NCBI RefSeq assembly: GCF_000383675.1
Contig: NZ_KB911823.1
Location: 63,095-127,094, forward strand
Source: Terracoccus sp. 273MFTsu3.1
GTDB lineage: Bacteria > Actinomycetota > Actinomycetes > Actinomycetales > Dermatophilaceae
Direction of reading: 5' to 3'
Length of the DNA: 64,000 nt
Made by a program: the position numbers and the translations under genes
The notes under the pieces: model-generated
The model's input: the letters and a program-made list of their open reading frames with translations, nothing else
Databases searched by the model: none
Told to the model about the DNA's origin: nothing
Shown here: positions 804 through 62,044 of the stretch, piece after piece
Layout of the letters: each line of letters opens with the position of its first letter
Numbering within the stretch: the first letter of the stretch is position 1

Positions 804-904
804 GTCCCGACGTGATGTGTGCCAGCCGACGGCATACGACCGCATCGCCGTCGACGTCGCGGCGCGCACCTCAAGCCCGCTGAAACCAACGAAACGAGAT
901 CACT

Positions 905-1168
905 GTGTCCGGTACCCAGGCTGCTCCCATCGGCATCACCAACCCGCCGATCGACGACCTCCTGACCGCCGCTGACTCGAAGTACGCGCTCGTCATCTAC
1001 TCCGCCAAGCGCGCCCGTCAGATCAACGCCTACTACTCCCAGCTGCAGGAGGGCCTGCTCGACTACGTCGGCCCGCTCGTCGAGACCGAGGTCCACGAGA
1101 AGCCGCTGTCGATCGCGCTGCGCGAGATCAACGAGGGCCTGCTGACCTCGACGCCCACCGAGGCCTGA
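905..1168 (+). CDS. rpoZ: DNA-directed RNA polymerase omega subunit
   Basis: Small (87 residues) assembly subunit of RNA polymerase that binds the beta' subunit. The core [19 protein letters not shown] and the C-terminal [16 protein letters not shown] match actinobacterial omega proteins, as does the short N-terminal extension containing [11 protein letters not shown]. The start is GTG 905; upstream sequence is purine-rich but has no strong Shine-Dalgarno. It stands alone between gmk (101-nt gap) and coaBC (26-nt gap), in the conserved gmk-rpoZ-coaBC order. Confidence 0.95.
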
Positions 1169-1194
1169 GCACCCCGACGGGTCCGGAGCAGCCG

Positions 1195-2433
1195 ATGCGC
1201 GTCGTCCTCGGGGTGAGTGGCGGCATCGCCGCCTACAAGGCGTGCTCGCTGCTCCGGCTCTTCACCGAGCACGGGCACGACGTCACGGTCGTGCCCACCG
1301 CGGCGGCGCTCCAGTTCGTCGGTGCGCCGACGTGGTCGGCTCTCTCGGGCAAGCCCGTCAGCACCGAGGTGTGGACGGCGGTGCACGAGGTCCCGCACGT
1401 TCGCATCGGCCAGTCGGCCGACCTCGTCGTCGTGGCGCCGGCGACCGCCGACCTGCTCGCCAAGGCCGCACACGGCCTGGCCGACGACCTGCTCACCAAC
1501 ACCCTGCTCACCGCCCGGTGCCCGGTCGCCTTCGCGCCGGCCATGCACACGGAGATGTGGGAGCACCCGGCCACGCAGGCCAACGTCGCGACGCTGCGCT
1601 CGCGCGGAGCGCACGTCATCGAGCCCGCGGTGGGTCGCCTGACGGGCAAGGATTCCGGCGCCGGCCGGCTCCCCGAGCCCGAGGCGTTGTATGCCGCCTG
1701 CCTCGCGATCGTCTCGGGTGACGGTGCCGCGGTGGCGGGGGCGCCGCTGCGCGACCTCGAGGGCCGCCGCGTCGTCGTGTCCGCCGGTGGCACGCGCGAG
1801 CCGCTCGACCCGGTGCGCTATCTCGGCAACCGCTCGTCCGGCAAGCAGGGCGTGGCCATCGCGCGCGCCGCCGCCGACCGCGGGGCGAAGGTCACCCTCG
1901 TGGCCGCCAACGTCTCGCTCCCGGTGCCCGACGGCATCGACGTCGTGCCGGTCGAGACGACGCTCGAGCTGCAGCGGGCGGTCGAGGAGGCGGCGTCGGA
2001 CGCCGACGTCGTCGTCATGGCTGCCGCCCCGGCCGACTTCCGGCCGGCGCTCGTGAGCGAGAGCAAGATCAAGAAGTCGTCCGACCCCGACGCCGGGCTG
2101 CGGGTCGAGCTCGTCGAGAACCCCGACATCGTCCGCGGGCTCGTCGCGGACCGCGACGCGCGTGGGGCGGCGACGCCGTTCATCGTCAGCTTCGCGGCCG
2201 AGACGGGTGACGCCCACGGCAGCGTCATGGACCACGCGCGGGCGAAGTTCGTCCGCAAGGGCAGCGACCTGCAGGTCGTCAACGAGGTCGGCACCGACCT
2301 GACCTTCGGCAAGGACGACACGACGGTGCACCTGCTCCGCCGCGGCAGCGACGAGGCGACCACGGTCGGCCCGACCTCCAAGGACGCCGTCGCCGACGCG
2401 CTGTGGGACACCATCTCGCCCCTGCTCGACTGA
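1195..2433 (+). CDS. coaBC: Bifunctional phosphopantothenoylcysteine synthetase/decarboxylase
   Basis: Carries out two consecutive steps of coenzyme A synthesis: CoaB joins cysteine to 4'-phosphopantothenate using CTP, and CoaC decarboxylates the product with FMN. The 412-residue protein has an N-terminal flavoprotein domain starting GGIAAYKACSLLR, the active-site histidine region VPHVRIG, and a substrate clamp PAMHTEMW in which the usual Asn is His. The C-terminal CoaB domain starts near VVVSAGGTREPLDPVRYLGN and has the KIKKS nucleotide-binding loop. ATG 1195 follows a GGAGCAG ribosome binding site. Confidence 0.96.
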   Translation: MRVVLGVSGGIAAYKACSLLRLFTEHGHDVTVVPTAAALQFVGAPTWSALSGKPVSTEVWTAVHEVPHVRIGQSADLVVVAPATADLLAKAAHGLADDLLTNTLLTARCPVAFAPAMHTEMWEHPATQANVATLRSRGAHVIEPAVGRLTGKDSGAGRLPEPEALYAACLAIVSGDGAAVAGAPLRDLEGRRVVVSAGGTREPLDPVRYLGNRSSGKQGVAIARAAADRGAKVTLVAANVSLPVPDGIDVVPVETTLELQRAVEEAASDADVVVMAAAPADFRPALVSESKIKKSSDPDAGLRVELVENPDIVRGLVADRDARGAATPFIVSFAAETGDAHGSVMDHARAKFVRKGSDLQVVNEVGTDLTFGKDDTTVHLLRRGSDEATTVGPTSKDAVADALWDTISPLLD

Positions 2434-3772: not shown

Positions 3773-5809
3773 GTGGGCGACGACGAGACCAAGCAGCGAC
3801 CGGCCGGACGGCCGGTCGCTGCCGTCGTGGTGGAGACCCCGCTCGCGCACCTCGACCGCGTCTTCGAGTACGCCGTGCCCGAGGAGCTCGACGCCGACGC
3901 CGTGCCCGGTGCGCGCGTGCGGGTGCGCTTCTCCGGCCGCGAGCTCGACGGCTTCGTCGTCGAGCGGCGTGGCCAGCCGCAGCACGACGGCCGCCTGACG
4001 CCGCTGCGGCGTGTCGTCAGTCCCGAGCCGGTGCTGACCCCCGAGGTCCTCGCTCTCTGCCGGGCCGTCGCCGACCGGTATGCCGGCACCCTGAGCGACG
4101 TCCTGCGCCTCGCGGTCCCCAAGCGCCACGCCACGGCCGAGCGCAACCTCGCGATGGAGTGCCCGCCCCAGGAGGCGCTGGAGGCGCCGGACCCCGGTGC
4201 GTGGACGGCCTACCCGGCCGGTCCGGCGTGGCTGCGTCGCGTCGCCTCCGGGGAGGGTCCCGCCGCGGCGTGGGCCGCGCTGCCGGGACGCACGGGAGAC
4301 GCGGACTGGCCCGCAGCCCTCGCCGTCGCCGTCGCCACGGCGCTGGCCGCGGGCCGGGGCGCGCTCGTCGTCGTGCCCGACCACCGCGACGTCGACCGGC
4401 TCGACGCCGCCCTGACCGCCGTGCTCGGCAAGGGGCGCCACGTGCGGCTCACCTCCGACCAGGGCCCGCAGGCGCGCTACACGGCGTGGCTCAAGGTGCT
4501 CCGCGGTCACGTCCGGGTCGTCATCGGCACGCGCGCGGCGGCCTTCGCCCCCGTCCGCGACCTCGGCCTCGTCGCGTGGTGGGACGACGGCGACGACCTG
4601 CTCGCCGAGCCGCGAGCGCCCTACCACCACGTGGGGGTCGTGCTCGGGCTGAGGGCGTCCGCGACCGGCGCCGCCCTGCTGACCGGAGGGTTCGGGCGAA
4701 GCCTGCGCGTCCAGGTCGCCATCGAGGCGGGCGCCCTCGTGCCCGTCGAGGCCGACGCCCCGACCGTTCGCGCCGTCGCTCCCCGCGTCACCATCGCGGG
4801 TGAAGGGGTCGACGAGGAGCGCGACGGGCCTGCGGCCCGGGCGCATCTGCCCTCGCGTGCCTGGCGCGTCGCCAAGGACGCCCTCGTCGACGGGCCGGTG
4901 CTCGTCCAGGTCCCGCGGCGCGGCTACCTGCCGTCCCTCAGCTGCGCCGAGTGCCGCACGCCGGTGCGGTGCGTCCGATGCCAGGGGCCGGTCGCCCTCG
5001 GCGCCGCCGGGACGGCCCCGGCCTGCCGGTGGTGCGGCCTGGCCCTCAGCGGCCACGGCTTCGAGTGCGGACACTGCGGCTCGCGTCGCCTGCGTTCCTC
5101 GATCACGGGCGCCCGGCGCACGGCGGAGGAGATCGGGCGCGCCTTCCCGGGCTTCCCCGTCCACACGTCGGGCTCCGGGGAGGTGCTCTCCGCCGTCGGG
5201 AGCGAGCCCGCCCTCGTCATCGCGACGCCGGGAGCCGAGCCCGTCGCCGACGGCGGCTACACCGCCGTGCTGCTGCTCGACGCGTGGGCGAGCCTCGACC
5301 TGCCCGTGCTCGACGCGCCCCTCGAGGCCGTCCGACGGTGGATGGCCGCTGCGGCGCTGGCCCGCGAGGGGCGTGCCGTGGTGCTGAGCGGCGCCCCGGA
5401 AGCCGTGGCCCTGCCGGCCGTCGAGGCGCTCGTGCGGTGGGACCCCGCCTGGCTCGCGGCCCGCGAGCTGGCGGAGCGGCGTGAGCTCGGCCTTCCGCCG
5501 GCCGTGCGCGTGGCCCAGCTGACCGGTGGCCGTCGCCCGCTCGAGGAGGCGCTCGGGCAGGCCGACCTGCCCGACGTCGCCCAGGTGCTCGGCCCGGTCC
5601 GGCTCTCGCACGCGGGTGCCCCTCCCCGGCGCGCGCCGGCCGACGGGGAGCCCGAGCGTGCGGTCGCCGACCACCACGTGCTCGTCCGCGTGCCGGCCTC
5701 CGAGACCGAGTCGCTGACCCGGGCCCTGCTGGCGCTGAAGGCCTTCCGTTCGGCACGCAAGGAGACGGACGTCGTGGCCGTGCGGGTCGACCCGCTCGAC
5801 ACGTTCTGA
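3773..5809 (+). CDS. priA: PriA-like primosomal protein N', helicase motifs degenerate
   Basis: Homolog of the replication-restart protein PriA, 678 residues. The N-terminal 3'-DNA-binding domain (from VVVETPLAHLDRVFEYAVP) and the four zinc-binding CxxC pairs (CAEC, CVRC, CRWC, CGHC, about residues 388-435) are intact. The ATPase core is not: no GxxGSGKT Walker A is visible and the DEEH box position reads WDDGDD. This is typical of actinobacterial PriA proteins, which are presumed to lack helicase activity, so a structural role at forks is inferred. GTG 3773 lies 7 nt after a TAGATT -10-like hexamer (3760-3765), suggesting a leaderless mRNA separate from metK. Confidence 0.9.
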   Translation: MGDDETKQRPAGRPVAAVVVETPLAHLDRVFEYAVPEELDADAVPGARVRVRFSGRELDGFVVERRGQPQHDGRLTPLRRVVSPEPVLTPEVLALCRAVADRYAGTLSDVLRLAVPKRHATAERNLAMECPPQEALEAPDPGAWTAYPAGPAWLRRVASGEGPAAAWAALPGRTGDADWPAALAVAVATALAAGRGALVVVPDHRDVDRLDAALTAVLGKGRHVRLTSDQGPQARYTAWLKVLRGHVRVVIGTRAAAFAPVRDLGLVAWWDDGDDLLAEPRAPYHHVGVVLGLRASATGAALLTGGFGRSLRVQVAIEAGALVPVEADAPTVRAVAPRVTIAGEGVDEERDGPAARAHLPSRAWRVAKDALVDGPVLVQVPRRGYLPSLSCAECRTPVRCVRCQGPVALGAAGTAPACRWCGLALSGHGFECGHCGSRRLRSSITGARRTAEEIGRAFPGFPVHTSGSGEVLSAVGSEPALVIATPGAEPVADGGYTAVLLLDAWASLDLPVLDAPLEAVRRWMAAAALAREGRAVVLSGAPEAVALPAVEALVRWDPAWLAARELAERRELGLPPAVRVAQLTGGRRPLEEALGQADLPDVAQVLGPVRLSHAGAPPRRAPADGEPERAVADHHVLVRVPASETESLTRALLALKAFRSARKETDVVAVRVDPLDTF

Positions 5810-7756: not shown

Positions 7757-7821
7757 CCTCCAAAGGAATGCTTGACGGTTGACCCGGCCGGACGGCATAC
7801 TCCCAAACATGTCTTTGGAGG
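7757..7821 (+). promoter_or_regulatory. Leaderless promoter with inverted CCTCCAAAG/CTTTGGAGG arms
   Basis: TTGACG (7772-7777), an 18-bp spacer and CATACT (7796-7801) form a good promoter whose predicted start falls at or next to the ATG at 7809. A perfect 9-bp inverted repeat, CCTCCAAAG at 7757-7765 and CTTTGGAGG at 7813-7821, flanks it. A shorter dyad CCAAA-N6-TTTGG (7803-7818) sits over the start codon. This is a natural place for the ArsR-like regulator encoded here to repress itself and its exporter; binding is inferred. Confidence 0.65.
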
Positions 7822-12826: not shown

Positions 12827-13606
12827 GTGACGGCATACGCGACCGACGACCTCGAGCCCACCCCCTTCGACGAGAGGGTGGCGCCGACGTACGACGCGGG
12901 GTCGGCCCACATGTTCGAGCCGGCCGTCCTCGGCCCGACCGTCGACGTGCTCCATGCCCTCGCCGGGGAGGGCCCGGCCCTCGAGCTCGCGATCGGCACC
13001 GGGCGGGTCGCGCTGCCCCTCGCAGGGCGCGGCGTCGAGGTGCACGGCGTCGACGTCTCGGAGGCGATGGTCGCCGAGCTGAGACGCAAGCCGGGTGGTG
13101 ACCGGTTGGCGGTGACGATCGGTGACATGGCGACCACCCGGGTGGGCAGTGGCTACCGCCTCGCGTACCTCGTCTACAACACGATCACGAACCTGCTGAC
13201 CCAGGACGACCAGGTCGAGTGCTTCCGCACCGTCGCCGGGCAGCTCGCTCCGGGAGGGTGCTTCGTCGTCGAGGTCTTCGTGCCGCAGCTGCGCCGGATG
13301 CCGCCCGGGCAGACCGCCGTGCCCTTTCACGTCGGCAGGCGCCACGCCGGCTTCGACACCGTCGACGTCGTGTCCCAGCTGTCGGTCTCGCACCACTACG
13401 TCCGGGAGGGCCGGCAGGACGCCCAGGGGCGGGAGCTGGCGAGGTATGCCGCCTCGGCGCACCGCTACGTGTGGCCGTCGGAGCTCGACCTCATGGCGCG
13501 CCTGGCGGGCCTGACCCTGACGCACCGCTGGGCGGACTGGGACCGCAGTGCCTTCACGGCTGAGTCGGAGTCGCACGTCTCGGTGTGGGCCAAGGGCGGT
13601 GCCTGA
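12827..13606 (+). CDS. Class I SAM-dependent methyltransferase
   Basis: A 259-residue protein with the glycine-rich SAM motif LELAIGTGRVALPLAGRG and acidic motif II VHGVDVSEAMVAELRRK, then YLVYNTITNLLTQDDQVE and LAPGGCFVVEVFVP. Its substrate cannot be told. GTG 12827 lies 6 nt after CAGGGT (12815-12820), so a leaderless start is likely. The first codons contain CGGCATAC. It sits alone between rsmB and rpe. Confidence 0.85.
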   Translation: MTAYATDDLEPTPFDERVAPTYDAGSAHMFEPAVLGPTVDVLHALAGEGPALELAIGTGRVALPLAGRGVEVHGVDVSEAMVAELRRKPGGDRLAVTIGDMATTRVGSGYRLAYLVYNTITNLLTQDDQVECFRTVAGQLAPGGCFVVEVFVPQLRRMPPGQTAVPFHVGRRHAGFDTVDVVSQLSVSHHYVREGRQDAQGRELARYAASAHRYVWPSELDLMARLAGLTLTHRWADWDRSAFTAESESHVSVWAKGGA

Positions 13607-16525: not shown

Positions 16526-16532
16526 GGCACTA

Positions 16533-16657
16533 CGTGCTCCGGGGTCGGTGTAATTCCGAGCCGGCGGTTACAGTCCGCGACCCGACCGCATCCAGCGGCC
16601 GGTTGACCTGGTGAAATTCCGGGACCGACGGTGAAAGTCCGGATGGGAGGCAGCACG
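16533..16657 (+). promoter_or_regulatory. FMN riboswitch (RFN element)
   Basis: The conserved RFN blocks are all visible: GGGGTCGGTGTAATTCCGA (from 16541), GGCGGTTACAGTCCGCGACCC (about 16563-16583), GGTGAAATTCCGGGACCGACG (about 16610-16630) and GGTGAAAGTCCGGATGGGAG (from 16630). The outer P1 stem pairs CGTGCT (16533-16538) with AGCACG (16652-16657). FMN binding is expected to shut off the operon below. About 120 nt separate the aptamer from pnuX; GC-rich repeats there could form either a terminator or a sequestering hairpin, which I cannot decide by eye. Confidence 0.96.
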
Positions 16658-16776
16658 AAACAGGCCGTCGTGGCCTGGGCCGTCGGCATCGTCCGTCCGG
16701 GTCCGGACCACGTGGGCGTGTGGAGTCACCCCGGAGTTCGTCCGTGCCACGACGAACGACCAAGGACGAACACCAC

Positions 16777-17538: not shown

Positions 17539-18573
17539 ATGGGTGACACGGCCGCCCCGGCCTGGATGCGACGAGCCCTCCGGCTCGCCGCGTCCGGGCC
17601 GTGGCCCGACCCCAACCCGCGGGTCGGCTGCGTCATCGTCGCTGCCGACGGCGCCCTCGTCGTCGGAGAGGGTCACCACCACGGAGCCGGCACGCCGCAC
17701 GCGGAGATCGAGGCGCTGAGGTCGGCCGGCCCCGCGGCCCGGGGCGCGACCGCCTACGTGACGCTCGAGCCGTGCTCGCACACCGGCCGCACCGGCCCCT
17801 GCGCCGAGGCGCTCGTCGAGGCCGGCGTGGCGCGGGTCGTCTTCGCGCAGTCGGATCCCAACCCGGACGCGGCGGGAGGCGCCGAGGTGCTGCACGCCGC
17901 CGGCATCCACGTGACCGGAGGTGTGCTCGCCGACGAGGCGGCCGCCCTCAACGACCGCTGGGCTCGCTGCGTGGCCCTCGGCCGGCCGCTCGTCACGTGG
18001 AAGCTCGCCACGACCCTCGACGGCAGGAGCGCCGCGGCCGACGGCAGCAGCCAGTGGATCACGGGAGAGGCAGCGCGCGCCGACGTCCACGGGCTGCGCG
18101 CCACCCGTGACGCCGTCCTCGTCGGCACGGGCACCGTGCTCGCCGACGACCCCCGTCTCACGGTGCGTATGCCGGGTGGCGGGCTCGCGCCGCAGCAGCC
18201 CCTTCGCGTCGTCATGGGAGAGCGTGGACTTCCGGCCGGAGCGCGCCTCCACGACGCTCCGGGGGAGGTGCTGCACCTGACCACTCGCGACCCCAACGAG
18301 GCACTGGAACGCTTGTGGCACAACGGAATCCGTGATGTCTGGCTCGAGGGAGGCCCTACGCTCGCCGCGGCGTTCCTGCGCGCCGGTCTCGTCGACGACG
18401 TCTACGCCTACGTCGCCCCGGCGCTGCTCGGCTCGGGCCGGGCCGCCGTGGCCGACCTCGGCATCACCTCCATCGCAGACGTCCGACGCCTTGATCTCGT
18501 CGACGTGACGGTCGTCGGGGGAGACGTCCGCATCCACGCCGGCGCCCACCCGCGAGTGCCCGCAGAACCCTGA
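17539..18573 (+). CDS. ribD: Riboflavin biosynthesis deaminase/reductase RibD
   Basis: Bifunctional enzyme for the second and third steps of riboflavin synthesis, 344 residues. The N-terminal deaminase has the zinc set His54-Ala-Glu56, Cys79 and Cys88 in GTPHAEIEAL and LEPCSHTGRTGPC. The C-terminal NADPH reductase starts around TWKLATTLDGRSAAADGSSQWI and has LEGGPTLAAAFLRAGLVD. It begins 3 nt after the pnuX stop, without its own strong ribosome binding site, so coupling to pnuX is likely. Confidence 0.96.
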   Translation: MGDTAAPAWMRRALRLAASGPWPDPNPRVGCVIVAADGALVVGEGHHHGAGTPHAEIEALRSAGPAARGATAYVTLEPCSHTGRTGPCAEALVEAGVARVVFAQSDPNPDAAGGAEVLHAAGIHVTGGVLADEAAALNDRWARCVALGRPLVTWKLATTLDGRSAAADGSSQWITGEAARADVHGLRATRDAVLVGTGTVLADDPRLTVRMPGGGLAPQQPLRVVMGERGLPAGARLHDAPGEVLHLTTRDPNEALERLWHNGIRDVWLEGGPTLAAAFLRAGLVDDVYAYVAPALLGSGRAAVADLGITSIADVRRLDLVDVTVVGGDVRIHAGAHPRVPAEP

Positions 18574-18583: not shown

Positions 18584-19249
18584 ATGTTCACCGGAATCGT
18601 CGAGGAGCTCGGCACCGTCGCCGCCATCGAGCACGGCGCCGACTCGGCCGTGCTGCGCATCGACGGACCCCTCGTCGTCAGCGACGCCACCCACGGCGCC
18701 TCCATCTCCGTCAACGGCGTCTGCCTCACGGTGACCGAGCACGACTCCTCCGGCTTCACGGTCGACGTCATGGCCGAGACCCTCGCCCGCAGCAGTCTCG
18801 GGGCCCTGGCCCCCGGTGACCGCGTCAACCTCGAACGCGCCATGCCGGCCGACGGCCGCTTCGGTGGTCACGTCGTGCAGGGCCACGTCGACGGGACTGC
18901 CACCATCACCTCGCGAACGCCCGGGGACCGTTGGGAGACGGTCGACTTCACGCTCCCAGCGGGCCTGGCGGCATACGTGGTCGAGAAGGGCTCGATCACC
19001 GTGGACGGGGTCTCGCTCACCGTCGCCCACGTCGGCGACGGGGTGTTCGGCGTCTCGCTCATCCCCACGACGCTCGACCTGACGACCCTGGGGCACAAGG
19101 GGGTCGGTGACGTCGTCAACCTCGAGGTCGACGTCATCGCGAAGTACGTCGAGCGACTGCTCAGCCACCGCCAGCCCGACCGACAGACCGACCGACAGAC
19201 CGACCGACAGACCGACCGACAGACCGACCGGCAGGAGGTCGAGTCATGA
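18584..19249 (+). CDS. ribE: Riboflavin synthase alpha subunit
   Basis: Dismutates two lumazines to riboflavin and ribityl pyrimidine. The 221-residue protein has the two tandem lumazine-binding barrels, starting MFTGIVEELG and FGGHVVQGHVDGTATI, with SVNGVCLTV and TVDGVSLTVAHVGDGVF as the matching loops. The end is odd: after YVERLLSHRQ comes a low-complexity tail of (Asp-Arg-Gln-Thr) repeats encoded by tandem DNA repeats. RBS GAGGAGA precedes ATG 18584 and the stop overlaps ribBA. Confidence 0.95.
   Translation: MFTGIVEELGTVAAIEHGADSAVLRIDGPLVVSDATHGASISVNGVCLTVTEHDSSGFTVDVMAETLARSSLGALAPGDRVNLERAMPADGRFGGHVVQGHVDGTATITSRTPGDRWETVDFTLPAGLAAYVVEKGSITVDGVSLTVAHVGDGVFGVSLIPTTLDLTTLGHKGVGDVVNLEVDVIAKYVERLLSHRQPDRQTDRQTDRQTDRQTDRQEVES
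19178..19237 (+). repeat. 12-bp tandem repeats at the 3' end of ribE
   Basis: GACCGACAGACC occurs four times without error (19178, 19190, 19202, 19214) followed by a diverged partial fifth copy at 19226. The unit encodes Asp-Arg-Gln-Thr. The array runs straight into the GGAGG ribosome binding site of ribBA (19233-19237), so a length change would alter the ribE tail and the sequence just upstream of the ribBA start. Confidence 0.96.
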
Positions 19250-20998: not shown

Positions 20999-21262
20999 GT
21001 GAAGAGCTTTGAGCAGCTGTATGCCGAGCTGGCCGAGAAGGCGCAGACGCGACCCGAGGGTTCGGGCACCGTCGCGCAGCTCGACGCCGGCGTCCACGCG
21101 ATCGGCAAGAAGATCGTCGAGGAGGCGGCCGAGGTGTGGATGGCCGCCGAGTACCAGTCGAACGACGAGGCCGCCGAGGAGATCAGCCAGCTCCTCTACC
21201 ACCTGCAGGTCCTCATGCTCGCCAAGGGCATCTCGCTCGACGACGTCTACTCCCACCTCTGA
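20999..21262 (+). CDS. hisE: Phosphoribosyl-ATP pyrophosphatase
   Basis: Second step of histidine synthesis; hydrolyses PR-ATP to PR-AMP. The 87-residue protein matches the all-alpha MazG-like HisE family: [60 protein letters not shown] (20985-20990) ends 8 nt before GTG 20999, pointing to a leaderless mRNA independent of the rib operon. HisI, often fused to HisE in other bacteria, is a separate gene at 36836. Confidence 0.95.
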
Positions 21263-21276: not shown

Positions 21277-22122
21277 ATGCTGCGAATCGCCGTGCCCAAC
21301 AAGGGCTCTCTCTCCGACGCGACCGTCGAGCTGCTGCGCGAGGCGGGCTACCGCGTGCGCCGTGACACCAAGGAGCTCGTCGTCGCGGACGCCGAGAACG
21401 ACGTCGAGTTCTTCTACCTGCGCCCCCGCGACATCGCGGTCTACGTCGGCTCCGGCACGGTCGACGGGGGCGTCACCGGTCGTGACCTGCTGCTCGACTC
21501 GGGCTCGAGCGCCGTCGAGGTCATGTCGCTCGGCTTCGGCGCCTCGACCTTCCGGTATGCCGGCAAGCCCGGCCACGTGGGCACCGTCGACGACATCGCG
21601 GGCAAGCGGGTCGCCACGTCCTATGCCGGCCTGGTGCGTTCCGACCTCGCCGCCCGTGGGCTCTCGGCGGAGGTCGTGCGCCTCGACGGCGCGGTCGAGA
21701 CGGCCATCACCCTCGGGGTGGCCGACTGCATCGCCGACGTCGTCGAGACCGGGACGACCCTGCGCCAGCAGGGCCTCGAGGTGTTCGGCGAGCCGATCCT
21801 GCAGTCCGAGGCCGTCCTCATCCGCGGCGACCGCCCCGGCGAGGACCAGGCCATCGAGGTGCTCCAGCGGCGCATCGCCGGCGTCATCACGGCCCGCACG
21901 TACGTCATGCTCGACTACGACTGCCCGAAGGACCTCGTCGACCGGGCCTGCCGGCTGACGCCGGGCCTCGAGTCGCCCACGGTCTCGCCGATGCAGGACG
22001 AGGCGTGGGTCGCCGTGCGCGCCATGGTGCCTCGCATCGGGCGCAACCGACTCATGGACGAGCTCTACGACCTCGGCGCGCGGGCGATCCTCGTGACCGA
22101 CATCGCCGCCTGCCGGCTGTGA
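21277..22122 (+). CDS. hisG: ATP phosphoribosyltransferase, long form
   Basis: Commits ATP and PRPP to histidine synthesis. At 281 residues it is the long form with a C-terminal ACT-like regulatory domain, so histidine feedback is expected and HisZ is not needed. Visible motifs: LRIAVPNKGSLSDATVELLR, the catalytic-site sequence YVGSGTVDGGVTGRDLLLDS, and DCIADVVETGTTLRQQGLEV (PRPP loop). ATG 21277 is 14 nt after hisE. The stop overlaps the GTG of the next gene. Confidence 0.96.
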   Translation: MLRIAVPNKGSLSDATVELLREAGYRVRRDTKELVVADAENDVEFFYLRPRDIAVYVGSGTVDGGVTGRDLLLDSGSSAVEVMSLGFGASTFRYAGKPGHVGTVDDIAGKRVATSYAGLVRSDLAARGLSAEVVRLDGAVETAITLGVADCIADVVETGTTLRQQGLEVFGEPILQSEAVLIRGDRPGEDQAIEVLQRRIAGVITARTYVMLDYDCPKDLVDRACRLTPGLESPTVSPMQDEAWVAVRAMVPRIGRNRLMDELYDLGARAILVTDIAACRL

Positions 22123-29056: not shown

Positions 29057-29643
29057 CAGAGACTAGATGTGTCGAGGACGAGGTCAGCGCGCTCCCTCGT
29101 CGCGTCGGCGGTGAAGAGCGCCGACTCCTGGTCGGCCCAGCGCTGCCACTGGGGTCGGTAGGCCTCACCGTCACGGTCGATCCCGCGGCGCATCCGCAAC
29201 GCGGTGTCGGCGTCCACGAAGACGGACACGGCGGCATACTCCCCAGCGGGCGCCACGCTGGAGCCGCACCCCTCGACGACGAGGAAGCGGCACGGCGGCA
29301 CGTCGCGCGTGCCCGACCACTGCTCGCGGACCCAGCTCCACAGCCGGTAGGTCGCCCGCTCGCCGCGCGCCAGCGGCTCGAGCACCTGCGCCGTGAGCAG
29401 CCCGGGTGCCTGGGCCAGCCCGTCCCAGCCCGGGTAGAGGTGGTCCATGTGCACGACGGCCACGGGGCCCCGTGGCGCCAGGGCGAGCTCGATGCCGCGG
29501 GCCAGCGTCGTCTTCCCGGCGCCGCTCGGCCCGTCGAGGGCGATGACCACGACGTCACCGCAGCGGGGCTCCGCCGCGAGCGCGAGGGACACGACGGCGG
29601 CGACGTGCTCCTCGCGCGGCGGTCGCGTCACCTCGTCCCACAT
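29056..29643 (-). CDS. Uridine kinase-like P-loop ATPase
   Basis: A 195-residue small-molecule kinase. The P-loop is GPSGAGKTT (38-46), followed by VAVVHMDHLYPGWDGL, the substrate-binding segment of uridine/phosphoribulokinase-like proteins, and a late RMRRGIDRDGEAYRP lid region. The substrate is uncertain. ATG 29643 lies 7 nt from a minus-strand TAGGGT (plus coordinates 29651-29656), implying a leaderless mRNA. It is coupled to the MFS gene, suggesting that uptake and phosphorylation, or export, act on related compounds. Confidence 0.75.
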   Translation of the reverse strand: MWDEVTRPPREEHVAAVVSLALAAEPRCGDVVVIALDGPSGAGKTTLARGIELALAPRGPVAVVHMDHLYPGWDGLAQAPGLLTAQVLEPLARGERATYRLWSWVREQWSGTRDVPPCRFLVVEGCGSSVAPAGEYAAVSVFVDADTALRMRRGIDRDGEAYRPQWQRWADQESALFTADATRERADLVLDTSSL

Positions 29644-29663
29644 GGGCGCGACCCTACCGACCC

Positions 29664-29691
29664 GTGACCGTCCCCCGGGCTGCCCTAGATT
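29664..29691 (+). promoter_or_regulatory. hisF promoter, leaderless
   Basis: GTGACC (29664-29669), a 16-bp spacer and TAGATT (29686-29691) end 6 nt before the hisF ATG at 29698. It lies back to back with the leftward kinase promoter, the two -10 elements being only about 30 bp apart. Confidence 0.6.
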
Positions 29692-29697
29692 TGTCGT

Positions 29698-37421: not shown

Positions 37422-37483
37422 GGTGGTGGGGGAGCGCCGGGGGCCTGATCGAAGGGTGAGGCGGGGACACGGCATACGACCGC

Positions 37484-40023: not shown

Positions 40024-40851
40024 GTGCCGACGGTTCTCGACGGGATCATCAGCGGCGTCCGCGAGGATCTCGGACGCCGTCGCGCCGCGCTGTCGCCTGC
40101 TGATCTGGAGGCGCTGCTCGCGTCGGTGCCCCCGGCGCTCGACCCGATGCCGGGCATCCGCTCCGCCGAGGGCGTCGCCGTCATCGCCGAGGTCAAGCGG
40201 TCCAGCCCGAGCAAGGGCGCGCTGGCGGACATCCCCGAGCCCGGCCTGCTGGCGCGGTCGTATGCCGCCGGGGGAGCGAGCGCCATCAGCGTGCTCACCG
40301 AGGAGCGCCGGTTCTCCGGCAGCCTCGCCGACCTCGACGAGGTGCGCGCGGCGGTCCGGACTCCCTTGTTGCGCAAGGACTTCATGGTCGACGCCTACCA
40401 GGTGACCGAGGCCCGGGCCCACGGCGCCGACCTCATCCTGCTCATCGTCGCGGCTCTCGGCGACGACCTCATGCGTGACCTGCACGACCAGGCCCGCGAG
40501 CTCGGCATGACCGCTCTCGTCGAGGTCCACGACGCGTCCGAGCTCGACCGGGCGCTCGCGCTCGACCCCGTCCTCGTCGGGGTCAACGCCCGCAACCTCA
40601 AGACCCTCGAGGTGAACCCCCGCACCGTGACCGACCTGCTGCCGCGCGTCCCCGAGGGCGTCGTCGGCGTGGCCGAGTCCGGGGTCAGCGGGCCGGCCGA
40701 CGTCGCCGCCTACGTGCGCGCGGGAGCCGGAGCCGTGCTCGTCGGCGAGGCCCTCGTCAAGGACGGCGCCCCCGAGGCCGCGATCCGCGGCTTCATCGAC
40801 GCCGCGACCGCGGTCCGGGCCTCGGCCCGACCCGGCTCGGCAGGAGAGTGA
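40024..40851 (+). CDS. trpC: Indole-3-glycerol phosphate synthase
   Basis: Cyclises CdRP to indole-3-glycerol phosphate. The 275-residue barrel has the catalytic [15 protein letters not shown] and [13 protein letters not shown] lysines, [28 protein letters not shown] and [12 protein letters not shown] 40024 is in the trp operon, just after the HGxxPAAW gene. It is monofunctional (no TrpF fusion). Confidence 0.96.
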
Positions 40852-40853: not shown

Positions 40854-42113
40854 ATGACCACGACATCCAACGTGCCGGCATACGGCCGCTTCGGCGGTTT
40901 CGGCGGACGCTACGTCCCCGAGGCGCTCATCCCCGCCCTCGAGCAGCTCGAGGAGGTCTGGCGCAAGGCCGTCGTCGACCCGGAGTTCGTCGGCGAGCTC
41001 GAGCGTCTCCAGCGCACCTACACGGGGCGGCCGAGCATCATCACCGAGGTGCCGCGTTTCGCGGAGCACTGCGGCGGGGCGCGCGTCATCCTCAAGCGCG
41101 AGGACCTCAACCACACCGGCTCGCACAAGATCAACAACGTCCTCGGCCAGGCCCTCCTGACCAAGCGGATGGGCAAGACGCGCGTCATCGCCGAGACGGG
41201 CGCCGGCCAGCACGGCGTCGCGACGGCCACGGCGGCCGCCCTGCTCGGTCTCGAGTGCGTCGTCTACATGGGTCGCAAGGACACCGAGCGCCAGGCGCTC
41301 AACGTCGCACGGATGCGCCTGCTCGGCGCCGAGGTCGTCGCGGTCGACAACGGCAGCAAGACGCTCAAGGACGCCGTCAACGAGGCGTTCCGCGACTGGG
41401 TCGCCAACGTCGACACCACGCACTACGTCCTCGGCACCGTCACCGGGCCGCACCCCTTCCCCGAGATGGTCCGCGACTTCCACCGCGTCATCGGGGTCGA
41501 GGCGCGCCAGCAGGTGCTCGACCTCGTCGGTCGGCTGCCCGACGCCGTCCTCGCCTGCGTCGGCGGCGGCTCCAACGCGATGGGCATCTTCCACCGCTTC
41601 ATCGACGACCGCTCGGTCCGGCTCATCGGGTTCGAGGCGGGCGGCGAGGGCGTCGAGTCCGGCAAGCACGCGGCGCGCTTCTCGGCCGGCATCCCCGGCG
41701 TGCTCCACGGCGCCTTCACCTACGTCATGCAGGACGAGGACGGCCAGACGGTCGAGTCGCACAGCGTCTCGGCAGGGCTCGACTACCCCAGCGTCGGACC
41801 CGAGCACGCGCACCTGCTCGAGTCGGGGCGCGCGGAGTACCGCCCGATCAGCGACGTCGAGGCCATGGAGGCCTTCTCGCTGCTCTCGCGCACCGAGGGC
41901 ATCCTGCCCGCCATCGAGAGCGCGCACGCGCTCGCCGGCGCCATGAAGGTCGGGCGCGAGCTCGGACCCGACGCCGTCCTGCTCGTCAACCTCTCGGGGC
42001 GCGGCGACAAGGACGTCCACACGGCCGCCGAGTGGTTCGGCCTCATCGACGACGACGGCTCGCCGCGCCTGCCGGACGACGACGGCGCCAAGGGCATGGG
42101 GGAGCAGCAGTGA
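40854..42113 (+). CDS. trpB: Tryptophan synthase beta subunit
   Basis: Joins indole and serine with PLP. The 419-residue protein has the PLP lysine Lys92 in [31 protein letters not shown], the phosphate-binding GGGSNAMG and the late [12 protein letters not shown] 40854 with AGGAGAG 6-12 nt upstream is preferred over GTG 40848, which overlaps that ribosome binding site. Its stop overlaps the trpA GTG. Confidence 0.97.
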
Positions 42114-44197: not shown

Positions 44198-47100
44198 ATG
44201 CCGCCGCACACCCGCACCCGTGCCCTCTTCAGTGCACACCCGGAGAACTCCGGTCTCTACCGACGCGAGTTCGAGCACGACGCCTGCGGCGTCGCCCTCA
44301 TCGCGACGATGCGGGGGACGGCAGGTCACGACATCGTCGACCACGCCCTCACGGCGCTGCGCAACCTCGACCACCGGGGTGCCACGGGCGCCGACCCGCT
44401 CGTCGGTGACGGAGCGGGCATCCTGACGCAGATCCCCGACGAGTTCTTCCGGGCGACCGTCCCCTTCACCCTCCCCAACAGCGGGGCGTATGCCGCCGGC
44501 ATCGCCTTCCTGCCCCCGAACCCCATCGAGCGCGCGGCCGCCAAGGCGCGCATCGAGGAGATCGCGGTCGCCGAGAACCTCAAGGTGCTCGGCTGGCGCG
44601 AGGTCCCCGTCGAGGCCGACCTCGTCGGCACGGTCGCGCGGGACTGCATGCCGTTCTTCGAGCAGCTCTTCGTCAGCAGCTCGATCGGCCGCCAGGTGGC
44701 CCTCGGTCTCGACCGGCTCGCCTTCTGCCTGCGCAAGCGCGCCGAGCACGAGGTCGACGTCTACTTCGCCTCGCTCAGCTCCCGCACCATCGTCTACAAG
44801 GGCATGCTGACGACCGGCCAGCTCGAGCCGTTCTTCCCCGACCTGTCCGACCACCGGTTCAAGAGCGAGCTCGCCCTCGTGCACTCGCGCTTCTCGACCA
44901 ACACGTTCCCGTCGTGGCCCCTCGCGCACCCGTACCGATTCATCGCCCACAACGGCGAGATCAACACCGTCAAGGGCAACCGCAACTGGATGCACGCCCG
45001 CGAGAGCCTCCTGACGTCCGACATCATCCCGGGCGACCTCGAGCGGATCTTCCCCGTCTGCACGCCGGAGGCGTCCGACTCGGCGAGCTTCGACGAGGTG
45101 CTCGAGCTGCTCCACCTCGGTGGCCGCTCGCTCCCGCACGCCGTGCTCATGATGATCCCCGAGGCGTGGGAGAACCACGCCACGATGGACCCCGCCCGCA
45201 AGGCCTTCTACGAGTTCCACTCGACCTTCATGGAGCCGTGGGACGGTCCGGCCAACGTCTGCTTCAGCGACGGCACGCTCGTCGGAGCGGTCCTCGACCG
45301 CAACGGCCTGCGACCCGGCCGCTACACGGTCACGGACGACGGACTCGTCGTGCTCGCGTCGGAGTCCGGCGTGCTCGAGCTCGACCCGAGGACCATCGTC
45401 CAGCGGGGGCGGCTGCAGCCCGGCAAGATGTTCCTCGTCGACACCGAGCACGGCCGGATCGTCAGCGACGAGGAGATCAAGAGCCAGCTCGCGGCGGCCA
45501 AGCCGTACGCCGAGTGGCTGCACGCGGGTCTCATCCGCCTCGAGGACCTCCCCGAGCGTGAGCACATCGTGCACACGGCCGCCTCGGTCGCCCGCCGCCA
45601 GCAGACCTTCGGCTACACCGCCGAGGAGCTGCGCATCCTCCTGACGCCGATGGCCCGGTCCGGTGGCGAGGCGCTCGGCTCGATGGGCACCGACACGCCC
45701 ATCGCCGTCCTGTCCTCGCGGCCGCGCCTGCTCTTCGACTACTTCACCCAGCTCTTCGCGCAGGTCACCAACCCACCGCTCGACGCGATCCGCGAGGAGC
45801 TCGTCACCTCACTCGGTACGTACATGGGCCCCGAGGGCAATGCGCTGTCGGCCTCCCCGAGCCACGCCCGCCAGCTCGTCCTCGACTTCCCCGTCATCGA
45901 CAACGACGAGCTCGCCAAGATCGTGCACATCAACGCCGACGGCGACCTGCCCGGCTACGCCACGCACGTCGTCCGTGGCCTCTACGACGTCACCGGGGGA
46001 GCGGCCGCCATGCGCGACCGCCTCGAGGAGATCTTCGCCGAGGTCTCGCAGGCGATCCGGCGCGGTGCCCGCTTCGTCGTGCTCTCCGACCGGGACTCGG
46101 GCCGTGACCTCGCGCCCATCCCGTCGCTGCTGCTCACGGCTGCCGTCCACCACCACCTCATCCGCGAGAAGACCCGCACCCAGGTGGGTCTGCTCGTCGA
46201 GGCCGGCGACGTGCGCGAGGTCCACCACGTGGCCCTGCTCATCGGCTTCGGCGCCGCCGCCGTCAACCCCTACCTGGCGATGGAGACCGTCGAGGACCTC
46301 GTCCGGGCGGGCGAGATCGAGGGCGTCACGCCCGAGAAGGCCGTCGCCAACCTCATCAAGGCGCTCGGCAAGGGTGTCCTCAAGGTCATGTCCAAGATGG
46401 GCATCTCGACCGTCGCCTCCTACCGCGGCGCCCAGGTCTTCGAGGCCATCGGCCTGGCCCAGCCACTCGTCGACCGCTACTTCACCGGCACGGTCAGCCA
46501 GCTCGGCGGTGTCGGCCTCGACGTCATCGCCCGCGAGGCGGCCGAGCGGCATGCCCGGGCCTACCCGCCGGACGGCGTCCACCAGCCGCACCGCACCCTC
46601 GAGGTCGGTGGCGAGTACCAGTGGCGCCGCGAGGGCGAGCCACACCTCTTCGACCCCGAGACGGTCTTCCGCCTCCAGCACTCGACGCGGCAGCGCCGCT
46701 ACGACATCTTCAAGCAGTACACCGAGCGCATCGACGACCAGACGTCCCGCCTCATGACGCTGCGTGGCCTCATGGGCTTCCGGCCGACCGGGGTCACGGG
46801 GCGCCTGCCCGTGCCGATCGAGGAGGTCGAGCCGGTCAGCGAGATCGTCAAGCGCTTCAACACCGGCGCGATGAGCTACGGCTCGATCTCCAAGGAGGCT
46901 CACGAGACCCTCGCGATCGCGATGAACCACCTCGGCGGCCGCTCCAACACCGGCGAGGGCGGCGAGGACATCGACCGCCTGCTCGACCCCGAGCGGCGCT
47001 CGGCCGTCAAGCAGGTCGCGTCCGGACGCTTCGGCGTGACGAGCCTCTACCTCACCCACTCCGACGACATCCAGATCAAGATGGCGCAGGGCGCCAAGCC

Positions 47101-50251: not shown

Positions 50252-50288
50252 CGTATGCCGTGTCGCCACCCCGGCGACACGGCATACG
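50252..50288. terminator. 16-bp hairpin after gltD, with CGGCATAC arms
   Basis: CGTATGCCGTGTCGCC (50252-50267) and its exact complement (50273-50288) form a 16-bp perfect stem with a 5-nt loop. It stands 39 nt after the gltD stop and must strongly terminate or stabilise the transcript. The outer arms are GTATGCCG and CGGCATAC, the over-represented motif described in the findings. Confidence 0.85.
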
Positions 50289-51885: not shown

Positions 51886-51916
51886 GTATGCCGCCGGGCC
51901 CGGCCCGGCGGCATAC
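51886..51916. terminator. GC-rich hairpin after pyk, with CGGCATAC arms
   Basis: GTATGCCGCCGGGCC (51886-51900) is complementary to 51902-51916, giving a stem of at least 12 bp with a small GC loop. It lies 31 nt after the pyk stop. As at 50252-50288, the outer arms are GTATGCCG and CGGCATAC. Confidence 0.8.
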
Positions 51917-58853: not shown

Positions 58854-59291
58854 TCAGGCCCCCGGCGCCGCGTCGCGCAGCAGACAGGTGATGCGCGACG
58901 TGCAGACGCGCTTGCCCTCCTCGTCGGTGACGACGACGTCGTAGCTGACGAGGGTGCGGCCGGCGCTGAGCAGCGTCGCCGTCCCGGTCACGACGCCCGA
59001 GCGGGCGGCCCGGTGGTGCGTCGCGTTGATGTCGAGCCCGACGGCCACGCGGCCCGGGCCAGCATGGATCTGGGCGCCGATGGAGCCGAGGGTCTCGGCG
59101 AGCACGACGCTCGCGCCCCCGTGGAGCAGCCCGTACGGCTGGGTGTTTCCGGCGACGGGCATCGTCGCGACGAGGCGCTCGGGGGAGACCTCGGTCATCT
59201 CGATGTGCATCCGTTCGAGGAGCGTCCCCTCGGCCATCGACCGCATGTCGTCGAGGGTCTGACCGGGCGCCTGCGTCGAAGAGTCAGTCAT
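58854..59291 (-). CDS. PaaI-like hotdog-fold thioesterase
   Basis: A 145-residue acyl-CoA thioesterase of the PaaI/menaquinone-DHNA-CoA thioesterase group. Visible are MPVAGNTQPYGLLHGGASVVLAETLGS, the catalytic HGG region, and the strand ATHHRAARSGVVTGTAT. Whether it acts on DHNA-CoA or phenylacetyl-CoA products is undecided. ATG 59291 is 6 nt from a minus-strand TACGAT (plus 59298-59303) that overlaps a CGGCATAC motif; polA lies divergently 78 bp away. Confidence 0.88.
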   Translation of the reverse strand: MTDSSTQAPGQTLDDMRSMAEGTLLERMHIEMTEVSPERLVATMPVAGNTQPYGLLHGGASVVLAETLGSIGAQIHAGPGRVAVGLDINATHHRAARSGVVTGTATLLSAGRTLVSYDVVVTDEEGKRVCTSRITCLLRDAAPGA

Positions 59292-59368
59292 GCCGGGATC
59301 GTATGCCGCCCTCCCGCGCACCCGGTGCCCCGGCTCACGCCGTCGGTGGCCGCCACTAGGGTTGCCGT

Positions 59369-62044
59369 GTGAGCCGACTTCTCCTTCTCGACGGACACTC
59401 GCTGGCCTACCGCGCGTTCTTCGCGCTCCCTGCCGAGAACTTCTCGACGAGCACGGGGCAGCACACCAACGCCGTCTACGGCTTCACCTCGATGCTCATC
59501 AACATGCTGCGCGACGAGGAGCCGACGCACGTCGTCGTCGCCTTCGACAAGGCGCGACAGTCGTTCCGCACCGAGGAGTACGCCGAGTACAAGGCCGGTC
59601 GTGCGCGCACGCCCGACGAGTTCCAGGGCCAGATCCCGCTCGTCAAGGAGATCCTCGACGCGCTGCGCATCCGCTACGTCGAGCTCGACGGCTACGAGGC
59701 CGACGACATCATCGCGACGTTCGCCACGCAGGCCGAGGCCAAGGACATCGACGTCCTCATCTGCTCCGGCGACCGCGACACCTTCCAGCTCGTCTCCGAC
59801 CGGGTGACGATCCTCTACCCCGTCCGCGGGGTGTCCGAGGTGTGGCGGATGGGCCCGACCGAGGTCGAGGAGAAGTACGGCGTCCCCCCGACCCGCTACA
59901 GCGACCTCGCGGCCATGGTCGGCGAGTCCTCCGACAACCTGCCCGGCGTGCCCGGAGTCGGCCCCAAGACCGCAGCGAAGTGGATCACCCAGTACGGCGA
60001 CCTCGACGGCATCGTCGCGAGCATCGACAAGATCCCCGGCAAGGCCGGGCAGTCGCTGCGCGACCACCTCGACCAGGTGCTCCGCAACCGCCGCCTCAAC
60101 CAGCTCGTCAAGGACAGCCCCGTCGGCGTCGACGTCGAGGACCTCCAGCGCACCCAGTGGGCCCGCGAGGAGGTGCACACCGTCTTCGACGGCCTCGAGT
60201 TCCGCGTGCTCCGCGACCGCCTCTTCGCCACCGTCGAGGCCGCGGCCCCCGAGGCCGAGGAGGGTTTCGACGTCGACGGCGAGACCGTCGCGCCAGAGGC
60301 CGTGCCGGCCTGGGTGGCCGCACACCTCGCGTCCGACCAGCGCGCCGGGCTCTCCGTGGCCGGCACGTGGGCCCGGGGGACCGGTGACGCGAGCGGCGTC
60401 GCGGTGGCCGCGCCTGACGGCAGCGCCGCGTGGATCGACCTGCAGACCCTGACCCCCGAGGGCGAGGCCGCGCTCGGCGACTGGCTCGAGGACGCGGCCC
60501 GGCCCAAGGCCATGCACGACGCCAAGGGCCCGATCGAGGCCCTCGGCGCCCGCGGCTGGACGCTCGGCGGGCTGACGAGCGACACCCAGCTCGCGGCATA
60601 CCTCGTCAAGCCCGACCAGCGCACCTACCACCTCGACGACCTCGTGCTGCGCAACCTCCACCGAGAGCTGAGCGGTGCCGCCCCGACCGACGGCCAGGGC
60701 ATGCTCGACTTCGGCGGTGACGCCGACGAGGTGGCCGCCCAGAAGGAGATGGTGCGCGCGACCGCGGTGCGCGACCTCGCCGAGGTCCTCGACGAGCAGG
60801 TGGCCGCGACCGGTGGCGAGCAGCTGCTCGCCGAGGTCGAGATCCCGCTGGTCGGCGTCCTCGCCCGCATGGAGCGCACCGGCATCGCCGTCGACGTGCC
60901 GGGGCTCGAGTCGCTCGAGGGCGACTTCGCCGCCAAGGTCGCCCAGGCGCAGGAGGACGCGTGGGACGCCATCGAGCGCCGTGACGTCAACCTCGGGTCG
61001 CCGAAGCAGCTGCAGGAGGTCCTCTTCGGGCAGCTCAACCTGCCCAAGACGAAGAAGACCAAGACCGGGTGGACGACCGACGCCGACGCGCTGTCCGACC
61101 TCTACACCAAGACCGAGCACCCGTTCCTCGAGGCGCTGCTGCGCCACCGCGACGCCGCACGCCTGCGGGTCACGGTCGAGGGCCTGCAGAAGTCGGTGGC
61201 CGACGACGGCCGCATCCACACGACCTACCTGCAGACCATCGCCGCGACGGGCCGGCTCAGCTCGACCGAGCCCAATCTCCAGAACGTCCCGATCCGCACC
61301 GAGGAGGGGCGTCGCATCCGCGAGCTCTTCGTCGTCGGTGACGGCTACGACTCGCTGATGTCGGCCGACTACTCCCAGATCGAGATGCGCGTCATGGCGC
61401 ACCTGTCCGGCGACGAGGGGCTCATCGAGGCCTTCCGCACCGGCGAGGACCTTCACAACTTCGTCGGCTCGAAGGTCTTCGGCGTCGAGCCCGACGACGT
61501 CACGTCGGCCATGCGCTCCAAGGTCAAGGCCATGTCCTACGGCCTCGCCTACGGCCTCTCGGCCTTCGGGCTGTCCAAGCAGCTGACCATCAGCACCGAG
61601 GAGGCCCGGGGCCTCATGGACGGCTACTTCGAGCGCTTCGGCGGCGTCAGCGACTACCTCAAGGAGGTCGTCGCCGAGGCGCGCGGGACCGGCTACACCG
61701 CGACGATGTTCGGGCGCCGGCGCTACCTGCCCGACCTGACGTCCGACAACCGCCAGCGCCGCGAGATGGCCGAGCGGATGGCCCTCAACGCCCCGATCCA
61801 GGGCTCGGCCGCCGACATCATGAAGGTCGCCATGATCGGGGTCGACCGTGCGCTCACCGATGCCGGCGCGAAGTCGCGTGTGCTGCTCCAGGTCCACGAC
61901 GAGCTCGTCCTCGAGGTCGCCGCGGGCGAGCGTGACGACGTCGAGAAGCTCGTGCGTCACGAGATGGGGCACGCCGCCGAGCTCGACGTGCCACTCGACA
62001 TCAACGTCGGCGTCGGACACTCCTGGCACGACGCGGCCCACTGA
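59369..62044 (+). CDS. polA: DNA polymerase I
   Basis: Repair and Okazaki-fragment polymerase, 891 residues. The 5'-3' exonuclease domain (1-295) has LLLLDGHSLAYRAFFAL, GYEADDIIAT and SGDRDTFQL. The middle 3'-5' exonuclease domain (about 310-480) lacks the DxE and HNxxxD motifs, having SVAGTW and HDAKGP instead, so proofreading is probably absent. The polymerase has DYSQIEMR (Asp667), the O-helix RSKVKAMSYGLAYG and VHDE (843-846 region). GTG 59369 lies 6 nt after TAGGGT (59357-59362). Confidence 0.96.
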   Translation: MSRLLLLDGHSLAYRAFFALPAENFSTSTGQHTNAVYGFTSMLINMLRDEEPTHVVVAFDKARQSFRTEEYAEYKAGRARTPDEFQGQIPLVKEILDALRIRYVELDGYEADDIIATFATQAEAKDIDVLICSGDRDTFQLVSDRVTILYPVRGVSEVWRMGPTEVEEKYGVPPTRYSDLAAMVGESSDNLPGVPGVGPKTAAKWITQYGDLDGIVASIDKIPGKAGQSLRDHLDQVLRNRRLNQLVKDSPVGVDVEDLQRTQWAREEVHTVFDGLEFRVLRDRLFATVEAAAPEAEEGFDVDGETVAPEAVPAWVAAHLASDQRAGLSVAGTWARGTGDASGVAVAAPDGSAAWIDLQTLTPEGEAALGDWLEDAARPKAMHDAKGPIEALGARGWTLGGLTSDTQLAAYLVKPDQRTYHLDDLVLRNLHRELSGAAPTDGQGMLDFGGDADEVAAQKEMVRATAVRDLAEVLDEQVAATGGEQLLAEVEIPLVGVLARMERTGIAVDVPGLESLEGDFAAKVAQAQEDAWDAIERRDVNLGSPKQLQEVLFGQLNLPKTKKTKTGWTTDADALSDLYTKTEHPFLEALLRHRDAARLRVTVEGLQKSVADDGRIHTTYLQTIAATGRLSSTEPNLQNVPIRTEEGRRIRELFVVGDGYDSLMSADYSQIEMRVMAHLSGDEGLIEAFRTGEDLHNFVGSKVFGVEPDDVTSAMRSKVKAMSYGLAYGLSAFGLSKQLTISTEEARGLMDGYFERFGGVSDYLKEVVAEARGTGYTATMFGRRRYLPDLTSDNRQRREMAERMALNAPIQGSAADIMKVAMIGVDRALTDAGAKSRVLLQVHDELVLEVAAGERDDVEKLVRHEMGHAAELDVPLDINVGVGHSWHDAAH

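Follow-up and report, generated by a model that had tools for sequence, protein, structure and literature searches.

In the available part of a 2016 review, uptake sequences are described in two families, the Pasteurellaceae and the Neisseriaceae (PMC5031613). The DNA uptake sequence (DUS) of the Neisseriaceae occurs in eight dialects that follow phylogeny, and some genomes of that family are without the word (PMC3630211, in the excerpt available); for the uptake signal sequence (USS) of the Pasteurellaceae, no receptor had been identified as of the 2016 review (PMC5031613, same part). Micrococcus luteus has two tad clusters, both of which are required for transformation (PMC4322843, available text), and an FtsK/SpoIIIE gene adjoins its tad-1 cluster (PMC8467076, available text). 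Among the matches listed in the open-access literature, subscription papers and preprints being outside the scope, none described a comparable word from Actinobacteria. Here, we describe a non-palindromic 8-mer, CGGCATAC (the A word), identified in a stretch of 64,000 nt (the window) of the 4.94 Mb genome (G000) of a soil bacterium, very likely a Terrabacter (best named PolA match, T. tumescens, 93%). CGGCATAC is likely to serve as the DNA uptake sequence in a Gram-positive family, itself probably capable of natural transformation, that includes Terrabacter, Intrasporangium, Knoellia, and Leekyejoonella.

The A word resembles the neisserial DUS in that a short non-palindromic word is present in thousands of copies, forms inverted pairs at gene ends, and has dialects that follow phylogeny. 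However, the DUS is read by the minor pilin ComP, whereas G000 represents a high-GC Gram-positive with Tad/Flp genes and without an ATPase of PilB strength. The word is also a different one. The complement of CGGCATAC with the flank preferred in Terrabacter, ATGCCGTC, does coincide with the opening eight letters of the neisserial consensus ATGCCGTCTGAA (as given in the available part of PMC5031613), probably by accident, given that the A word lacks the CTG core of the neisserial sequence. With the USS, the A word shares copies throughout the genome and pairs that, in the case of the USS, lie in terminator hairpins (PMC1852404, available part), but the USS is a different word (AAGTGCGGT) in a Gram-negative host. 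M. luteus and G000 both possess comEA/comEC and a pair of tad clusters, one of which adjoins an FtsK/SpoIIIE gene. Neither “uptake sequence” nor “uptake signal” is used as a term in the available text of PMC4322843 and PMC8467076.

The window contains 25 copies of CGGCATAC on both strands (26 of the 7-mer), as compared to a mean of 0.67 copies (largest 3) in 100 dinucleotide shuffles and 1.1 copies expected under a third-order Markov model built from the window with its own copies of the word left in. A preliminary description, made by eye, had counted 25 7-mers and 24 8-mers where about 2 were expected; all 25 of its positions were right, one GTATGCC at 18167 was overlooked, and its claim of over-representation extends to the whole genome, in which CGGCATAC is present 2244 times, i.e., about once per two thousand letters. 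The two orientations (1111 and 1133 copies) are about equal, as had been proposed. The reversed word (the letters of CGGCATAC read backwards), used as a count control, was found 257 times (141 and 116); because the reversed word overlaps an extended motif in some genomes, ratios of word to reversed word given here are low estimates. In 464 kb of G000, 241 copies were observed versus 12 from a third-order model, so that the count is far above the Markov expectation; a count close to it was the outcome that the preliminary description had set against its own claim. The 24 one-letter neighbours of CGGCATAC presented a modest excess (384 versus 275 expected, sites masked, 544 kb). The flanks in Terrabacter often show A or G on the 5′ side and G on the 3′ side, and intergenic sites present a weak upstream pattern (approximately GA.C..GC.CAG), which is strong in G023 as GCCCAG-CGGCATAC-GGC. 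A word kept in excess through methylation or restriction is very improbable; the specificity units of such systems can shift in small steps, but restriction sites are usually avoided rather than enriched, and the weak upstream flank is unlike the usual restriction-modification target. A long mobile repeat was rejected in Terrabacter, where no long conserved flank surrounds the sites; in G023, 12 of 25 sites have one 14-mer in common, and its sites may partly represent a repeat family.

Gene boundaries were called with a simple gene caller of our own in a G000 sample of 544 kb that includes the window (464 kb for some counts, 360 kb for replication polarity); other genomes were sampled at 37–128 kb each, and named loci span 3–23 kb. 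In the 544 kb sample, 73 of the 275 copies are intergenic, although intergenic DNA represents only 11.2% of the sample (p = 1.8e-12), and 200 are located in coding sequences (CDSs); in 464 kb, 63 intergenic copies were found versus 3.4 expected under a third-order model of intergenic DNA. Among the CDS copies, 165 of 200 are in the frame TAT-GCC (103) or GCA-TAC (62), which is what composition or codon-pair bias would offer as the sole cause of the word. The excess between genes and the existence of dialects refute this explanation, as sister genera of like GC content (0.70–0.73) carry another word and it is only in A-word genomes that the TAT and GCA codons within the word are preserved (both described below); we give it practically no weight, and codon-pair bias with no intergenic excess, the second outcome that the preliminary description had set against itself, was not what we observed. 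The intergenic excess is general across the A-word and C-word samples (the C word being the one-base variant CGGCATCC), with intergenic/CDS densities per kb of 1.43/0.28, 1.66/0.37, 0.76/0.11, 1.02/0.81, 0.94/0.55, 1.59/0.83, and 1.03/0.69 in samples other than that of G000.

Within gaps, 45 of the 63 intergenic copies in 464 kb are closer to the 3′ end than to the 5′ end of a gene, and the density per kb in 544 kb was 1.6 in tandem, 1.9 in convergent, and 0.42 in divergent gaps (p = 1e-5). The earlier suggestion of a −10-like promoter word is judged unlikely from the preference for 3′ ends, yet the copies at 37470 and 59301 do lie between divergent genes. Pairs within 40 bp of each other in 464 kb included six with the minus-strand copy first (−+), two +−, and no direct pairs; within 45 bp in 544 kb, nine inverted pairs (six −+ and three +−) and one direct pair (−−) were found. 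In six other Terrabacter regions, all seven close pairs are −+, and several of these are orthologous to the window pairs. The two window pairs, previously described as forming terminator hairpins, do form inverted stems (15 and 14 pairs), with fold z-scores of −6.4 for the stretch of the pair 50253/50280 and −2.1 for 51886/51909, but a terminator is unsupported, as the terminator scan identified no T-tract stem at these two places. Strong stems after stop codons would suit a word acting as a terminator or other RNA element; with most copies single, 200 of 275 inside CDSs, and both window hairpins lacking a T tract, we regard this explanation as even less probable than one based on methylation or restriction.

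The sites are spaced more evenly than random (coefficient of variation 0.845 versus 0.989; 1.2% of random sets were this low, pairs merged), with a mean gap of 1.85 kb and a largest gap of 11.9 kb in 360 kb. Five GTTTCACGTGAAAC sites at approximately 211–214 kb of contig C1 of G000 (locus L019) resemble parS and would mark the origin region. No replication-strand bias was present in the 360 kb, where the strand counts were 58:65 on one side of parS and 39:32 on the other (p = 0.37). As an over-represented asymmetric octamer, high in copy number and differing between lineages, CGGCATAC resembles Chi, and a Chi-like site could mark DNA as self for a helicase-nuclease. However, CGGCATAC is without replication polarity in these 360 kb, and its intergenic excess and inverted pairs are not known as features of Chi, making this explanation improbable. 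A site bound along the chromosome by a cytoplasmic chromosome-organising or nucleoid protein is somewhat less improbable, though still unlikely: the fairly even spread, the maintenance of sites, and dialects are possible for any specific DNA-binding protein, but no such site with about 1000–4700 copies plus inverted pairs at gene ends is known to us, strand bias is absent around parS, and proteins of this type would be expected to switch specificity only rarely between sister genera.

Among 36 family genomes (G000 included) representing 28 genera, grouped by hand with regard to the A word, 14 genera have CGGCATAC in excess, two have CGGCATCC, one has CCGCATAC (the S word), and no word was found in 11; the word that the preliminary description had proposed to look for in sister genera is thus present in half of the genera of the family, with one-base variants in others. 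In a sample of the order (297 genomes, G000 included), the A word was found in 14 of 24 family genomes and in none of 273 genomes from 19 other families, among which the highest count was 177 (G256; reversed word, 135). G034 has 3949 copies of the C word and G024 has 3816, against 289 and 392 of its reversed form, while CGGCATAC has only 40 and 235 copies in these genomes (reversed word, 25 and 47). In the PolA tree, G034 and G024 form a clade (100/99) inside a clade with G029, G023, and Terrabacter, all of which carry the A word; these are two sister genera from which the A word has largely gone, and simple loss of a word was rejected, as both carry thousands of copies of CGGCATCC. The S word is that of one genome, G028 (1204 copies versus 107 reversed). 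Dialects follow phylogeny in the PolA tree, the C word occupying one clade and the S word one genome. The tree had labelled Leekyejoonella as wordless, such that some of the label changes counted there are false; it shares an identical PolA with G026, an A-word genome, and its locus contains four A-word copies in 14 kb.

Among the 11 genera in which no word was found, weak excesses were observed for the A word in G027 (293 versus 130 reversed) and for CGGCATCC in G009 (1336 versus 310 reversed). In samples of 40–120 kb from ten of the 11 wordless genera (all but that of G027), no word was as prominent as the A and C words, and a word with the low density seen in G028 (z of approximately 8 in 40 kb) could escape this sampling. 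Outside the family, AGGCATCCG presented 596 and 619 copies in the two orientations versus 2 and 4 reversed in G055, and 442 and 389 versus 11 and 7 reversed in G380, with far fewer in most of the other 78 genomes of the same family (f19; our guess, from its many genera, is Microbacteriaceae); a 60 kb sample of G055 contains 14 copies of the 10-mer GAGGCATCCG versus 0.4 expected. Several further words and repeats were encountered. G032 (L407–L409) contains 58 copies of GGCGTAC versus 12.8 expected and 20 of GGACGTAC versus 1.8, perhaps a further dialect, as well as 14 copies of ACGAAATG, all between called genes and array-like. G019 and G026 also carry 433 and 459 copies of CCGCATAC versus 461 and 312 of its reversed form, which overlaps the extended A motif; a mixed or relaxed specificity is possible in these two genomes. 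Approximately 50 copies of CCGCATAC on one strand with about 61-base spacing were found at G053:C1:28082–31265, resembling a CRISPR array, and 11 copies of CCACGAGATGTCAG in 40 kb of G011 (L384–L385) constitute a separate repeat. Phage TJE1 of Tetrasphaera jenkinsii contains two A words in 49 kb.

Conservation of individual sites, counted entirely in one 64 kb region, differs within and across dialects. Comparisons among the window, G029, G034, and G024 were made at approximately 82% identity (81% for the window to G024), and that of the window to G023 at 79%. Random 8-base windows were intact in 27–31% of cases in the comparisons with G029, G034, and G024 that underlie the following A and C counts (24% for the window to G024). 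Between A-word genomes, 12 of 19 window sites are intact in G029, and between C-word genomes, 19 of 43 G034 sites are intact in G024. From A to C, only 1 of 14 window sites is intact in G034 (p = 0.001 as compared to G029), 3 of 16 in G024, and 1 of 22 G029 A sites in G034; from C to A, 4 of 39 G034 sites are intact in G029 and 8 of 36 in the window. Within-dialect values above and cross-dialect values below the random 27–31% indicate that genomes of one dialect retain each other's sites, whereas sites are lost from one dialect to another. None of the aligned window sites reads CGGCATCC (0 of 14 in G034 and 0 of 16 in G024), so the switch did not convert existing sites where they stood. In other Terrabacter genomes, 13–21 of 23–25 aligned window sites are intact, in each case above the random 8.6–17.3. 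A codon comparison, limited to synonymous change at TAT and GCA codons with amino-acid changes excluded and with Fisher tests in 3 of 10 aligned genomes, gave the same separation: these codons were kept in 12 of 14 cases inside the word versus 17 of 69 outside in G005 (p = 3e-5) and in 8 of 9 versus 24 of 63 in G029 (p = 0.008), as compared to 1 of 9 versus 8 of 54 in the C-word G034 (p = 1.0). The data say that a DNA-reading protein maintains the word and that, from one sister genus to another, its specificity shifted by a single base.

The com and pil uptake genes that the preliminary description had proposed to look for are represented in G000 by ComEA, ComEC, and two tad clusters, which are also present in wordless genomes. 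A search of 58 genomes detected ComEC in 57, including G000, where a ComEA-like protein (SLBB and HhH domains) adjoins it. One Tad cluster of G000 encodes TadA, a T2SSF protein, a DUF4244 protein, and a TadE-like protein (below the Pfam cut-off); the second encodes TadA, TadE, and a TadE/G-like protein and adjoins the gene for an FtsK/SpoIIIE-FHA protein. Only two of the 36 family genomes (G013 and G033) have a PF00437 match as strong as that of PilB (E below 1e-120); the best match in G000 was 2e-66, and no ATPase of PilB strength is present there. Both Tad clusters are found in G009 and G018, in which no A word was found; their small tad-1 genes were detected by tblastn, and the TadE-like open reading frames (ORFs) of G034 and G024 by listing ORFs. 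The wordless G014 presented a single weak PF00437 match (E = 1.8e-4), and in G012, which carries the A word, the best match had E = 3e-34, such that tad-2 is unsupported there. As separators of word-bearing and wordless genomes, ComEC, ComEA, and the Tad genes were rejected because they are present in both kinds, and a third Tad cluster and PilB-type pili because they are missing in several word-bearing genomes.

The earlier comparison with DNA uptake sequences is borne out by the genome-wide and intergenic excess, inverted pairs, equal orientations, absence of replication-strand bias in the 360 kb covered, lineage restriction, and one-base dialects, features from which a role in uptake is in turn suggested. 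Under such a role, a surface DNA receptor would prefer double-stranded DNA with the word, the receptor most likely being a minor pilin or partner of a Tad/Flp competence pilus, or a ComEA-like protein. Word-bearing DNA would enter via ComEA/ComEC and then recombine, such that DNA of kin would be favoured, and biased uptake may spread the word to places where it is tolerated, i.e., gene ends and frames in which the sole cost is the use of rare synonymous codons. If the receptor changed, a new dialect would arise, with old sites decaying and new sites accumulating elsewhere. We lean, with less assurance than for the uptake role as such, towards a third, independently evolved system of self-recognition for transformation, the first in Gram-positives, which would be read by Tad/Flp and have at least four dialects (CGGCATAC, CGGCATCC, CCGCATAC, and GAGGCATCCG, the last in a different actinobacterial family) with one switch between sister genera. 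If so, it would provide an independent case in monoderms mostly without PilB-type pili and help to separate drive from species recognition; a large group of soil actinobacteria would be naturally transformable, offering a handle for their genetics. The nested switch from the A to the C word represents a natural experiment for the receptor, whose gene should be common to the sister genera and differ between them.

Several observations weigh against an uptake role. The role itself, competence of the species, recognition at uptake, and a receptor are what we infer, and any protein with genome-wide sites could give rise to dialects and conservation. ComEC and the Tad clusters permit the word but do not predict it. 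A receptor was not found: eleven Tad-cluster proteins gave no match to the Pfam ComP model, and the rest of the genome was not searched. The comEA-comEC loci are nearly word-free, with five copies in 17 loci of A-word genomes (none in nine Terrabacter loci of approximately 3.8 kb each, including L043, and all five in the eight others). Four capsid-gene loci in A-word genomes contain 3 copies versus 6.2 expected, numbers too small to weigh on either side; the relation of the word to low-GC DNA is weak. G023, an A-word genome with a longer motif and sparser sites, keeps 2 of 15 window sites versus 3.2 by chance. Close pairs are mixed in G024 (two each of +−, −+, and −−) and consist of one direct and one +− pair in G019. 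Only the 544 kb sample of G000 shows a clear avoidance of divergent gaps; the divergent density is equal to or higher than the tandem density in the other Terrabacter regions, six in number (5 copies in 3.0 kb), G024 (3 in 1.4 kb), G011 (3 in 1.7 kb), and G019 (3 in 1.9 kb), and divergent gaps are nearly as dense as tandem gaps in G029 (3 in 1.4 kb), all of these being small samples. Because this avoidance is not general, our confidence in an uptake role, and in a third independent system, was lowered slightly.

Positions of the A word in the window are listed in Table 1. With our gene calls, 9 of 25 copies are between genes, as compared to the nine previously placed outside or across the ends of CDSs, and 16 are in CDSs. 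The fixed frame described earlier fits 14 of these 16 (8 TAT-GCC and 6 GCA-TAC), the exceptions being the copies at 18167 and 29696.

Table 1. Copies of CGGCATAC in the 64,000-nt window, with strand and placement relative to called genes.
Feature	Position	Strand	Placement
CGGCATAC	830..837	+	between genes
CGGCATAC	1689..1696	-	CDS, TAT-GCC frame
CGGCATAC	4078..4085	-	CDS, TAT-GCC frame
CGGCATAC	7793..7800	+	between genes
CGGCATAC	12831..12838	+	CDS, GCA-TAC frame
CGGCATAC	13444..13451	-	CDS, TAT-GCC frame
CGGCATAC	18167..18174	-	CDS, other frame; overlooked in the preliminary description
CGGCATAC	18969..18976	+	CDS, GCA-TAC frame
CGGCATAC	21019..21026	-	between genes
CGGCATAC	21555..21562	-	CDS, TAT-GCC frame
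CGGCATAC	25325..25332	-	CDS, GCA-TAC frame
CGGCATAC	29232..29239	+	called but doubtful ORF 29056-30405, TAT-GCC frame
CGGCATAC	29696..29703	-	doubtful ORF 29056-30405, other frame
CGGCATAC	31522..31529	-	CDS, TAT-GCC frame
CGGCATAC	34054..34061	+	CDS, GCA-TAC frame
CGGCATAC	37470..37477	+	between divergent genes
CGGCATAC	40260..40267	-	CDS, TAT-GCC frame
CGGCATAC	40876..40883	+	CDS, GCA-TAC frame
CGGCATAC	44488..44495	-	CDS, TAT-GCC frame
inverted pair of CGGCATAC	50253..50287	50253 -, 50280 +	15-pair stem, 39 bases 3′ of stop codon
inverted pair of CGGCATAC	51886..51916	51886 -, 51909 +	14-pair stem, 30 bases 3′ of stop codon
CGGCATAC	59301..59308	-	between divergent genes
CGGCATAC	60594..60601	+	DNA polymerase I gene, GCA-TAC frame

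The gene ending before the second inverted pair encodes, by inspection, a pyruvate kinase, and the ORF marked as doubtful was also judged by inspection. Two other features of the window were identified. An FMN riboswitch (Rfam RF00050, 92.9 bits) is located at positions 16531–16659, with riboflavin genes downstream by inspection. On the minus strand, positions 23801–27670 encode a protein of 1289 amino acids that combines numerous IPT/TIG repeats with a CHAP domain and a match to B-lectin and is probably a large surface protein.

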